Part shown: positions 29,659 through 42,465 of the stretch, piece by piece
Numbering within the stretch: the stretch's first letter is position 1
How the letters are laid out: each line of letters opens with the position of its first letter
NCBI GenBank assembly: GCA_002424545.1
Contig: DIKL01000072.1
Span: 1 to 60,152, forward strand
DNA length: 60,152 bases
Direction: 5' to 3'
Source of the DNA: Syntrophaceae bacterium UBA5619
GTDB taxonomy: Bacteria; Desulfobacterota; Syntrophia; Syntrophales; UBA5619
The notes under the pieces: model-generated
The model's database searches: none
Told to the model about the DNA's origin: nothing
Seen by the model: only the letters and a program-made list of their open reading frames with translations
Translations under genes and position numbers: made by a program

Positions 29659-32600
29659 ATGATGCGACTCGAAGACCTTCAACCAAACGCCGCGGTACGT
29701 GGTGTCCTTCCGGATTGCCTCGTCACTGTCATCAGCGTGCAGTGGTTTGGTTCGGAGGCCCTCGAACTTACCTACAAGACGCCAGCCGGCAAGGTGGCCA
29801 ACGAACTGCTTTATCGGCACGACGAGCCCCGACTCGATCTCGTGGAGCAGGGCCGCCCCTGGAGTTTCGACGGCGACGGTGCCCTGTTCCGCCTGGTCTC
29901 CGAAGCACATCGCATCCGCCTTGCGCACCTCTTCGATCCGGTGCTCGCCGTCCATACCTCTATTGTTGATCCGCTGCCGCACCAGATTACGGCCGTTTAC
30001 GAGGCTATGCTGCCGCGTCAACCTTTGCGCTTTCTGCTTGCCGACGATCCCGGCGCCGGAAAGACGATCATGGCGGGTTTGCTCATCAAAGAACTGATCG
30101 CCCGTGGCGATTTGCAACGTTGTCTCGTCGTCTGTCCGGGCAGCCTTGCGGAGCAATGGCAGGATGAGCTCTATCGCCGTTTCCATCTTCCCTTCGAAAT
30201 CCTCACCAACGACAAGATCGAATCCGCTCGCACCGGCAACTGGTTTCTCGAAACCAATCTCGTCATTGCCCGGCTGGATAAGCTCTCTCGCAATGAGGAT
30301 GTACAGCAAAAGCTTCAGACTCCGGATTGCCGTTGGGACCTTGTGGTCTGTGACGAGGCGCACAAGATGTCCGCGACGGTTTTCGGCGCCGAGACGAAAT
30401 TTACCAAACGCTACCGGCTCGGCCAGCTTCTCTCGACCATCACGCGGCACTTCCTGCTGATGACGGCGACGCCTCACAACGGCAAGGAAGCAGATTTTCA
30501 GCTCTTCATGGCGCTCCTCGATGGCGACCGTTTCGAGGGCCGCTTCCGCGACGGGGTGCACGTGGCCGACGTCTCGGACCTGATGCGCCGGATGGTGAAG
30601 GAAAACCTCCTTAAGTTCGACGGCACGCCGCTGTTTCCGGAGCGCATCGCGTACACCGTACCCTACAAGCTCTCGGAGGCCGAAGCCCAGCTCTACAAAG
30701 CGGTCACCGAATATGTGCGCCAGGAGTTCAACCGGGCCGAAGCACTTGCGAATGATAAGCGCGCTGGAACCGTCGGCTTCGCACTCACCATTCTGCAGCG
30801 GCGGCTCGCTTCATCGCCCGAGGCGATCTACCAATCGTTGCGTCGACGTCGTGAAAGGCTGGAAAGCAGACTGCGCGAGATGGAAGTGCTCCAGCGCGGA
30901 GGTCGGACCGCACCAATCCTTACGGCCGACCTTCCGATCTTGGACGCCGAGGACGTCGAAGATCTCGAAGATGCGCCGGACAACGAGGTCAAGGCCGTCG
31001 AGGAGGAGATTCTCGATCAGGCGACCGCGGCGCGGACCATTGCCGAGTTGAAGGCAGAGATCGAGACTCTGAAAGGCCTGGAGTCACTGGCGCTCGGGGT
31101 CCGTCGCAGCGGAACGGACACCAAGTGGCGTGAGCTTTCCACCCTCCTGGGTGAGATCTTCACCACGGCCGCCATCTCCAGCCCCGTAGCCGAAGCGATC
31201 AAACCTTACGGCGCCGGTGCGATTCCCCGGCCCACACCTTCCCTGCACCAGAAGCTCGTTATCTTCACAGAACACCGCGACACCCTGAATTATCTTGAGT
31301 CCCGCATCACCACGCTGCTTGGCCGCAGTGAGGCGGTGGTCATCATTCACGGCGGCATGGGCCGCGAGGAGCGCATGAAGGCGCAGGAATCGTTCAAGCA
31401 CGACCCTGAAGTGCAGGTGTTGCTGGCGACGGACGCCGCCGGCGAGGGTATCAATCTCCAGCGCGCACACTTGATGGTGAACTATGACCTGCCGTGGAAC
31501 CCCAATCGCATCGAGCAGCGTTTCGGGCGTATCCACCGCATCGGCCAGACCGAAGTATGCCATCTCTGGAACCTGGTGGCCGAAGAAACCCGTGAGGGCG
31601 ACGTTTATCGCAAGCTCCTGGAGAAACTGGAGCAAGCCCGCGAAGCCCTCGGAGGTCAGGTATTCGACGTGCTCGGCAAGTTCCAGTTCGAAGGCAAACT
31701 GCTGCGGGATCTTCTGATCGAGGCCATCCGTTACGGTGATCAGCCTGAAGTACGCGCCCGCCTTACTACGGTCGTAGAGCAGGCGCTCGACCGCGACCAT
31801 TTCCAGGAACTGCTCGAAGAGCACGCCCTTGCCCACGACGCCATGGACGCGAGCCGCGTCCAACGCATCCGAAAAGATATGGAACGGGCGGAGGCCCGCC
31901 GCCTGCAGCCGCACTATATCGAGTCTTTTTTCCTTGAAGCCTTCCGCTATTTGGGAGGATCGGCGAGACAGCGGGAGCCGCGCCGCTACGAGATCACCCA
32001 TGTCCCGGCCCCGGTGCGCAACCGCGACCGCCTGATCGGTATCGGCGAGCCGGTGCTGCCGCGTTATGAACGCATTGCCTTCGAGAAGCTGCTGGTGGCG
32101 CCGCAAGGTCAGCCGCTGGCTGCTTTCGTATGTCCTGGTCATCCGCTGCTCGACTCGGTCATCGACCTTACCCTCGAACGCCACCGCGATCTCCTGAGAC
32201 GCGGCGCCGTGCTGGTGGATGAACGCGACTCAGGTACCCAGCCGCGCGTGATGTTCTATCTGGAACATGCAATCCAGGACGCAAGCCTTACGCGCTCGGG
32301 AGAGCGCCGCGTCGTCTCCAGGCGGATGCTCTATGTCGAGCTCGACGCCGCCGGCGTCACGCGCCACGTGAACTATGCCCCCTATCTCGATTACCGCCCC
32401 CTGGCCAAGGACGAGCCAGGTGTGGAGGCGATTCTCGAACGGCCCGAGTGCGCCTGGATTACCCGCGACCTGGAAAAGAAGGCCCAGGGCCATGCGGTCG
32501 TGAATGTTGTTCCCGAACACCTGGAGGAGGTGCGCGGTCCCAAACTTGCCCTGATTGCCAAGACCGAGGCGGCGGTCAAGGAGCGGCTCACCAAGGAGAT

Positions 32601-42100: not shown

Positions 42101-42465
42101 ACGAGGAGAAAAGCAGGCAGCCCGTGGGTGGCACGACTGCCGGACCGGCTACGGGCGGAGAAGGAACGACGACAACGGAGCCTGGCGCCGGACCGACTGG
42201 TACGCCTTCAGCACCACCGGCGGCGCCGAAGCTGAAGCGCTTTCATGGCACGGTGACCCTGGATCCCACCCGCGTCGGACGCGACGCCAGTCGAATCGCC
42301 GATGAAGTGATCGCCCATCTTTCCGGTCTGGTCGGCGCGAAGGTGACGGTGACACTGGAGGTGGAAGCGGATATTCCCTCCGGCGCCCCTGATCACGTGG
42401 TTCGCACCGTTACTGAAAACAGCCGGACGCTGAAATTCACGAGCCAGGAATTTGAGAAGGAGTAG
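39085..42465 (+). CDS. DUF499 ATPase with N-terminal Swt1-like HEPN domain
   Basis: An 1126-residue protein. Residues 1-125 are helical and resemble the Swt1-type HEPN domain; the HEPN RNase motif R-x4-H is intact as RNKWAH (96-101). Residues about 165-700 are the DUF499 P-loop ATPase, with Walker A NFGGGKTHS (248-256), Walker B CLILIDEWVAY (366-376) and sensor LLVISLPASD. A Gly/Pro/Thr-rich linker (about 1015-1055) leads to a short C-terminal domain. DUF499 and DUF1156 genes are common neighbours in archaea and bacteria. The HEPN part suggests an RNA-cleaving effector controlled by the ATPase; that role is inference. Confidence 0.82.
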   Translation: MAITNHERVGKALNLLKDGLRPFVERELKSQYQQGWFDELKASLPPQQLSFAGTEAEPFGDIAVVLAVLWNQWNTVFKKTLGHSERSLVSELRDHRNKWAHQEPFSGDDADRALDSVERLLAAVSAPQADDVRKLKMELRRTIYDEQVRSEKRKSAGSAIESAAAGNLKPWREVVMPHKDVASGRYQQAEFAADLWQVRLGEGTAEYRDPVEFFRRTYLTESLKRMLVGAVRRLAGEGADPVVQLQTNFGGGKTHSMLALYHLFSGITPTELPGIDAVMQEAGTAVLPTVRRVVLVGNRISPGNPITKPDGTVVSTLWGELAWQLGYAAGGAGEAKKAFDRLAADDKRATSPGDVLRELFVEYGPCLILIDEWVAYARQLHDQSDLPAGSFETQFTFAQVLTESVKLAKNCLLVISLPASDTTGSPHTQTDDVEVGGQRGREALDRLRNVVGRVESSWRPASAEEGFEIVRRRLFEPLADAAQFKDRDVVARAFADFYRTQQAEFPSDCRDADYEKRIKAAYPIHPEIFDRLYTDWSTLVKFQRTRGVLRLMAAVIHSLWEKGDKNPLIMPANIAIDDTRVQSELTRYLSDNWAPVIEKDVDGPNSLPLRIDGEVPNLGKFAACRRVARTIYLGSAPLAKAAHRGLEDRQVKLGCVMPGESPSVFGDALRRLAGAATYLYQDGPRYWYSTQPTVTKLAEDRAEQFKRDPDKVMHELDGRLRRDLERKGDFSRIHPLPQSGQDVPDDLDARLVVLGINHPYGKEPGSAAELAAKAILESRGNTPRHYRNTLVFLAADKIRLQDLDEATRKYLAWESILTEKGDKGLNLDPQQVKQAETQKVAADGAITARLPETYQWLLVPVQPKPQDAITCQAMRLSGQDALAVRASKKLKNDELLITVFAATRLRMELDQIPLWRGNHVTIKQLAEDFASFIYLPRLKDSSVLIGAVRQGLPSLLWMQETFAFADSHDENAGRYRGLRCGEDVYLADGETQGLLVKPDIACKQMDEEKSRQPVGGTTAGPATGGEGTTTTEPGAGPTGTPSAPPAAPKLKRFHGTVTLDPTRVGRDASRIADEVIAHLSGLVGAKVTVTLEVEADIPSGAPDHVVRTVTENSRTLKFTSQEFEKE

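Follow-up and report, generated by a model that had tools for sequence, protein, structure and literature searches.

The name Hma was given in 2021 to systems found as 1,638 three-gene operons, which often lie beside Septu (PMC8565338). In 2026, systems of this type were renamed Type-1 DUF499-centred BREX-related (BR), with 2446 taxa, 1370 HEPN-fused (PMC12839542); operons joining a HEPN-DUF499 gene to restriction-modification (R-M) parts and an SNF2-DUF3883 gene had been recorded in 2013 (PMC3710099). A published phage-defence result for HmaA is cited in PMC12839542. 'Guilt-by-embedding', Hma-embedded candidates and the presence of Septu in Hma are already in print (PMC12988326, PMC12255303; citing Payne et al. 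2024), and auxiliary nucleases adjoining or inside BREX and BR loci are reported in PMC12839542. Both the system type and the embedding of defence genes inside Hma are known already. Here a five-gene block is analysed in a 60,152-nt stretch (the window; contig DIKL01000072.1, assembly GCA_002424545.1) of Syntrophaceae bacterium UBA5619. The best explanation of the block as a whole, to which we give a probability of about 0.78, is that it is an Hma system (Type-1 BR, HEPN-fused), an R-M-like defence, in which two embedded PDC-S01 genes, here called D1 and D2, are exchangeable cargo.

The block lies at positions 29659-42465 on the + strand where, as the preliminary description of this DNA had stated, all five open reading frames (ORFs) are present, co-directional and intact: hmaA (29659-33240, 1193 amino acids), D1 (33262-34503, 413), hmaB (34610-37639, 1009), D2 (37701-39104, 467) and hmaC (39085-42465, 1126), with an overlap of 20 nt between the last two. 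Pfam agreed with the domains named there, which were SNF2-DUF3883, DUF1156, HEPN-DUF499 and two AAA/DUF4143 proteins. HmaA, an SNF2-type helicase, matched SNF2/Helicase_C and, at residues 1076-1162, NOV_C (PF13020, which we take to be the former DUF3883), so that a PD-(D/E)XK-like nuclease is predicted at its C-terminus. HmaB matched DUF1156 and MethyltransfD12, as a putative amino-methyltransferase, and HmaC matched HEPN_Swt1 (residues 11-125) and DUF499, as a HEPN-DUF499 ATPase. D1, in the hmaA-hmaB (A-B) gap, and D2, in the hmaB-hmaC (B-C) gap, each matched AAA_14 and DUF4143.

A PADLOC search, one of the checks proposed in the preliminary description, named genes 1, 3 and 5 as HmaA, HmaB and HmaC and both DUF4143 genes as PDC-S01. 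The HmaA model matched gene 1 with 1710.7 bits (residues 1-1190 against model positions 1-1170 of 1176), the HmaB model gene 3 with 1486.1 bits and the HmaC model gene 5, from residue 167, with 1168.2 bits; the PDC-S01 model gave 362.6 bits for D1 and 309.5 bits for D2. Because these full-length matches of 1711, 1486 and 1168 bits place membership beyond chance, the block is assigned by sequence to Hma, that is, to the HEPN-fused form of Type-1 BR, with two embedded PDC-S01 genes. The same matches and the published description of the type ruled out a new system. The suggestion of a distinct or poorly described defence type therefore fails, the block being of an already established subtype.

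The locus has the nuclease-tailed helicase, DUF1156 methylase and HEPN-fused DUF499 ATPase of Type-1 BR, in the same order and on one strand; a helicase N-terminal TUDOR domain and an ATPase C-terminal RRM are further features of the class. It differs in having a PDC-S01 gene in each of its two gaps and is otherwise ordinary. DUF4143 does not occur in the main text of PMC12839542. Type-2 BR (DUF1156, DUF499, DUF3780 and an HKD-helicase) has a homologous methylase and ATPase but was ruled out: the NCBIfam 'anti-phage' models scored 175.3 bits against a cut-off of 1200 for DUF499 and 105.5 against 1000 for DUF1156 (NF042962/NF042963), no DUF3780 or HKD domain was found by Pfam among the five proteins, and the nuclease of this block is at the helicase C-terminus.

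The residues expected to be catalytic are conserved. They were counted in other ORFs of at least 1050 (HmaA), 850 (HmaB) or 1000 (HmaC) amino acids that each scored above 400 bits, a set that is without shorter ORFs such as the ATPases of about 950-980 amino acids, probably HEPN-less, of loci L039, L040, L043 and L044. The Walker A lysine and DEAH acids of HmaA were kept in 54/54 of these, and its nuclease residues D1102, E1117 and K1119 in 53/54, 53/54 and 54/54. The DPPY motif of HmaB (residues 612-615), which is compatible with N6-adenine or N4-cytosine methylation, was present in 70/70. In HmaC the HEPN residues R96 and H101 were found in 52/55 and 55/55, and K253, D371 and E372 in all 55.

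The methylase has a variable middle (residues ~350-600; 35657-36409, + strand). Compared in steps of 50 residues with its relatives in two genomes of the same order, G152 and G055, HmaB is only 38-48% and 36-43% identical over residues 401-600, and 62% and 44% over residues 351-400; outside residues 351-600 the identity is 58-96%. HmaA and HmaC are 91% and 89% identical to those of G152, and 87% and 84% to those of G055. A specificity module would be expected to give this pattern of nearly invariant restriction parts and a methylase that varies in its middle, and the middle of HmaB is a probable target-recognition part. A target-recognition insert is placed inside the Type-1 BR methylase by PMC12839542.

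Taken together, these features suggest how the system would work. HmaB would methylate host DNA at sites set by its variable middle; HmaC, a BrxC-like ATPase, would organise scanning; and incoming DNA without the mark would be destroyed by HmaA, whose SNF2 motor is joined to a C-terminal PD-(D/E)XK nuclease. The HEPN RNase at the HmaC N-terminus would probably be a fail-safe that stops the cell when restriction is overwhelmed. D1 and D2 would be cargo that can be exchanged; rather than subunits of Hma, they are probably independent modules for defence or back-up that are expressed together with it. This working agrees with the published Type-1 BR model (PMC12839542), as does the mechanism in the preliminary description, with methylation marking self, a helicase-nuclease attack and HEPN as a second arm; the earlier account is supported in part, though not in its claim to novelty.

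Whether the gaps of Hma operons are cargo sites in general was examined in the best 80 of 125 confirmed loci from an HmaB scan, picked by HmaB similarity, in which genes were mechanical ORFs with nominal starts and gap cargo was any ORF of at least 140 amino acids. Among the 68 loci where hmaA and hmaB were both found, 67 had hmaA first (in L037 hmaA follows hmaB and hmaC), and hmaC followed hmaB in 69. A co-directional ORF was present in the A-B gap of 52/67 resolvable loci and in the B-C gap of 24/69; where both gaps were resolvable (n=61), 50 loci had cargo in at least one gap and 17 in both. The in-gap ORFs numbered 125 on the operon strand, in 67 similarity clusters, against 14 on the opposite strand. 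In 24 of the 52 loci with A-B cargo the first cargo ORF, by its nominal start, overlapped the hmaA stop by 4 nt.

A family scan covered 121 of the 125 ORFs, the giant ORFs of L004, L007, L029 and L052 standing outside it and that of L004 being scanned separately. The matches included AAA_21 (22 proteins), HATPase_c_4 (13), SLFN_AlbA_2 (10) and GmrSD_N (5). As examples, Septu PtuA/PtuB-like proteins were in the A-B gap of L010, AbiEi/AbiEii with PDC-S01 in L026 and a TmtA-like protein in L004. DUF4143 profiles, built from close homologues so that distant ones may escape them, matched three of the 80 loci, in the A-B gap in L026 and outside the gaps in L008 and L009. With DUF4143 in a gap in 1/80 loci, it was ruled out as a general Hma core gene; these counts mean that the gap-cargo pattern is general and that DUF4143 is rare as cargo in this sample. 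The published Hma-embedded candidates (HEC-01 and others) and Septu use the same gaps, but belong to cargo families other than PDC-S01.

On one 6.5-kb contig (L070) two hmaB pieces lie in opposite orientation, which may be an assembly effect. Two IMG/VR viral contigs (L125 and L126) encode HmaB relatives of 49% and 55% identity, from which it appears that Hma may travel on phage-like elements.

Closer relatives were sought in 155 genomes of the order, including that of the window; HmaC was matched in 16 (E ≤1e-60) and HmaA in nine (E ≤1e-150), and the HmaB search of the family genomes found only a fragment in G019. Loci were read in eight of the 15 other HmaC-positive genomes (the remaining seven being G067, G068, G083, G095, G124, G029 and G056). 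HmaA was 91% identical to that of the window in G152, 87% in G054 and G055, 85% in G133 and 77% in G080; in G006, a member of the same genus as the window, the first third of an HmaA is present at 96% identity. The G152 locus consists of hmaA (91%), D1 (84%), hmaB (67%), HEC-01 and hmaC (89%), the HEC-01 match (397 amino acids at 560 bits and 208 at 193 bits) standing where the window has D2. In G098 an hmaA tail lies at the contig end; behind it come D1, hmaB (split over two frames) and hmaC, and the B-C gap holds no cargo. MqsR and MqsA fill the A-B gap of G055, whose B-C gap is empty, and in G112 hmaB is preceded by a pair that by look alone resembles them and by a SecB-like protein. In two further genomes the contigs are broken: hmaA of G080 is followed by TmtA-like proteins, and in G133 a PIN protein precedes hmaB and a 23S rRNA-intervening-sequence protein precedes hmaC. 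The G100 fragment holds hmaB and hmaC only.

Loci whose helicases are 85-91% identical thus differ in their embedded cargo. Of the five-gene order that the preliminary description had wished to see elsewhere, the hmaA-D1-hmaB part recurs (G152, G098). None of the other loci read, those of the 80-locus sample included, had all five genes together, and none of them had D2 in its B-C gap. The G054 locus (L133) is decaying in place, with most of hmaB deleted and hmaC broken into two frames, and a 553-amino-acid protein without Pfam or PADLOC match lies beside its hmaB remnant.

PMC12988326 describes PDC-S01 as the fusion of an ATPase with a member of the PD-(D/E)XK group, and both D1 and D2 match this architecture. 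The two copies differ in that D1 keeps the E/D...E-x-K residues, whereas D2 and its close homologues have QVC. In D1 the Walker motif and E344, D346, E359 and K361 are invariant in 24 aligned sequences; in D2 QVC stands in place of E-x-K, with Q389 invariant and C391 nearly invariant in 25, so that the nuclease motif of D2 is, as judged from the alignment, degenerate and its lysine gone. The PDC-S01 candidate reportedly goes back to guilt-by-embedding in the Payne et al. 2024 preprint.

The structure model of D2 (mean predicted local distance difference test score, pLDDT, 75.2) has at its C-terminus a helix (344-358), three strands (362-367, 373-379 and 385-391), a helix (397-413) and a strand (418-423), and this modelled helix-strand-strand-strand-helix-strand order is that of the PD-(D/E)XK core. 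A fold search gave 25 matches (E up to 0.001), all to ORC/Cdc6-, STAND- or NLR-like ATPases; as the query TM-scores were low (0.14-0.36), the fold is taken no further than 'STAND/ORC-like ATPase'. The D1 model, with a mean pLDDT of 40.1, was not used. D2 probably starts at ATG 37737 instead of TTG 37701, because the methionine there is nearly invariant among homologues. Directly upstream of D2 is a perfect 11-bp inverted repeat with a 7-nt loop (37691-37719, assigned to no strand), a possible operator or hairpin. It occurs once in the window (chance expectation 0.24 at ≤2 mismatches) and in 1/61 genomes, its own, where no second copy exists. Repeats at the ends of the five-gene block were also searched for, and nothing convincing was found.

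D1 has its own promoter-like element, TTGCAA-16-TATAAT (33245-33272, + strand). An in-frame ATG begins 8 nt past this element, and D1 may start at ATG 33280 instead of 33262. The element matched at 10/12 positions in a promoter scan that found four sites against 3.6 in shuffles and is for this reason weak alone. The arrangement of TTGCAA with TATAAT 16 or 17 nt on was, however, upstream of 8/8 D1 copies (TATCAT in G039). As a motif it occurred once each in 11 of the 155 genomes, and a reversed-pattern control in 0/155. Ten of the 11 sites precede a D1 gene, which in G121 is in two pieces, and G010 keeps only the D1 beginning. At four (the window, G152, G098 and G042) hmaA or a tail of it stands before D1, and in G019 remnants of the end of hmaA and of the start of D1 are left. 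These contexts indicate that D1, as far as sequence can tell, is repeatedly embedded in Hma and also stands alone, with a promoter-like element of its own.

Counts for D1 mix this motif search with a protein search of 61 genomes, which found it at 77-94% identity in seven others and at 56% in G006. In 7/7 copies the DNA similarity to the window ends ≤6 nt from the stop codon; its upstream limit lies 0-10 nt ahead of the promoter-like element in 5/7 and inside the hmaA end in the other two (~22 nt in G056 and ~264 nt in G042). Six genomes (G056, G018, G007, G030, G039 and G012) gave no HmaA match, and the stretches fetched around their D1 genes had no similarity to the window's hmaA end (beyond the ~22 nt of G056) or hmaB start. 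The idea that D1 has no tie to Hma in relatives was overturned by the hmaA-D1-hmaB loci of G152 and G098 and by the hmaA-tail relics. Partial duplications of neighbouring DNA flank two of the stand-alone copies, with 198 nt at 89% in G056 (L107) and 110 nt at 79% in G039 (L112); around the other five copies and in the window only repeats of ≤38 nt were seen.

An SNF2 helicase with a methylase is also found in DISARM and Type-3 BREX. HmaA matches the PADLOC DrmD (390 bits) and BrxH (318 bits) models, and homologues of all three Hma core proteins are found in Type-3 BREX according to PMC12839542. That the block is DISARM or canonical BREX, or a degraded form of either, is nevertheless scarcely conceivable in view of the 1711 bits of the HmaA model. 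DISARM was ruled out by an NCBIfam DrmD score of 358 bits against a cut-off of 610 and by the absence of DrmA, DrmB and DrmC genes from the block; canonical BREX was ruled out since Pfam found no PglZ-type domain among the five proteins. The preliminary description had already noted that DrmA, DrmB and DrmC were absent, and a scan of the block bore this out: proteins 2-5 had no Drm match and the helicase, among the best 25 of its 56 matching families, had only weaker DrmD and DrmA ones. Membership of DISARM or BREX is refuted; an ancestry shared with BREX stands. A distinct five-gene system with both DUF4143 ATPases as required subunits would fit the co-directional, tightly packed genes with their 20-nt D2-hmaC overlap, the hmaA-D1-hmaB order of G152 and G098, the hmaA tail by D1 in G042 and the relics of both in G019. 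It is very improbable given that DUF4143 is in a gap of 1/80 Hma loci (although distant homologues may be missed by the profiles), that D1 stands without an HmaA match in six genomes and that D2 was in no other B-C gap read.

The strongest challenge to the reading as Hma with exchangeable defence cargo is that D1, and perhaps D2, may be selfish or passenger single-gene mobile units that landed in Hma gaps and give no phage protection. DUF4143 genes are widespread, being found in 31/41 genomes (that of the window included), with up to 24 per genome, and in 6/14 control genomes, and D1 itself is patchy (seven other genomes of 61), carries its promoter-like element along, has sharp similarity ends and twice lies between partial duplications. 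Against this, its Walker and PD-(D/E)XK residues are kept in the 24 aligned sequences, neither a transposase of its own nor terminal repeats were noticed, and no relative of D1 turned up in a single pattern scan of IMG/VR viral contigs, a scan limited to close relatives; PDC candidates were, moreover, nominated from embedding in defence operons (PMC12988326). We regard passenger units as possible but doubtful. A block serving mainly epigenetic gene control, or as an addiction unit of the toxin-antitoxin type, with defence secondary, would account for the HEPN RNase domain and for the toxin-antitoxin type cargo of related loci (MqsR/MqsA in G055, PIN in G133). The helicase-nuclease is, however, conserved together with the methylase, whose middle is strongly variable as in restriction systems, and the HmaA phage-defence result cited in PMC12839542 also speaks for defence, which makes this explanation very improbable.

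Some observations weigh against the preferred reading, that of an R-M-like Hma system with exchangeable PDC-S01 cargo. Eleven of the 61 loci with both gaps resolvable have cargo in neither, and the embedded genes could be passengers, not defence. HmaC is not uniformly constant, residues 1-150, its HEPN part, being 52-70% identical to G055. Sequence searches with HmaC and with the D1 profile found no relative of solved structure. The base modified by HmaB is disputed, the PADLOC paper (PMC8565338) giving it as a 5-methylcytosine methyltransferase and PADLOC-DB and PMC12839542 as an adenine methylase. HmaC residues 1001-1050 are likewise 55% identical to G055, and the HEPN part of HmaC may, from these comparisons, be exchanged too. 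Between the window and G152, unlike between the window and G055 (L134), residues 1-150 of HmaC are 94-96% identical.

A more far-reaching joint reading is offered only tentatively. Hma operons may be exchange platforms in which cargo is swapped at docking sites after hmaA and hmaB, HmaA and the bulk of HmaC hardly vary, and what changes is the middle of the methylase, at times with the HEPN part. D1 would be a self-contained, promoter-bearing, perhaps leaderless mobile unit of ~1.26 kb that cycles between docking at hmaA and stand-alone sites and leaves hmaA-tail scars; D1 and D2 may be an active/inactive nuclease pair, and the platform would itself be nested in a defence hotspot in an efflux operon. 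As the system type is known, the finding itself is modest, and what is added is the comparison of relatives and the exchange of extra parts. Loci with 85-91% identical helicases and differing cargo and methylase middle form a natural series in which the specificity part, and the dependence of the cargo on its host operon, become testable. A promoter-bearing PDC-S01 copy in and out of Hma is a good test object, because PDC-S01 is given as the fourth most common defence across prokaryotes and experimental validation is pending for most such PDC candidates (PMC12988326).

The Hma block sits between two parts of an efflux operon: an HlyD-type adaptor gene upstream (28240-29457, + strand; Pfam HlyD_D23, HlyD_3) and, downstream, genes for an ABC ATPase and two FtsX/MacB-type permeases (42553-45588, + strand; Pfam ABC_tran, FtsX, MacB_PCD). 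Adaptor and ABC gene were on one contig in 21 of the 61 genomes, ≤595 bp apart in 18. Within the window's genus the distance is 13.1 kb in the window, 11.9 kb in G008 and 7.8 kb in G010, and in G004, also on one contig, 5.4 kb from the adaptor to the ABC gene start. The intervening genes include AbiEi/AbiEii in G008 and a DUF4062-HATPase protein with a GT4-conflict protein in G010; G004 has a protein with the same PADLOC matches as the DUF4062-HATPase ones and another with a sub-threshold nSTAND3 match. Three more genomes have broken contigs here. The adaptor adjoins the start of HsdM in G009 and has a Schlafen-HATPase protein near it in G016; the ABC side carries pieces of a type I methylase, AbiE and HsdR in G009 and an Avs3a-like protein in G013. 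From its gene content the junction looks like a defence hotspot inside an operon. In the type I R-M locus of G009 (L098, L088) a DUF4062-HATPase gene, a 451-amino-acid gene and AbiEi/AbiEii lie between the methylase and restriction genes, from which it appears that R-M operons, too, have similar cargo families embedded in them.

The 3' end of the second FtsX gene (45511-45588) is repeated at 52422-52495, ~6.9 kb downstream in the same orientation. Between the repeats are an uptake ABC operon, a DHH gene, a GHMP kinase gene and an ORF (45778-46089) with a sub-threshold DDE_3 transposase match, and this stretch is perhaps a second insertion adjoining the first. In G009, DNA that matches the transketolase-like gene of 52510-54999 comes almost immediately after the FtsX end.

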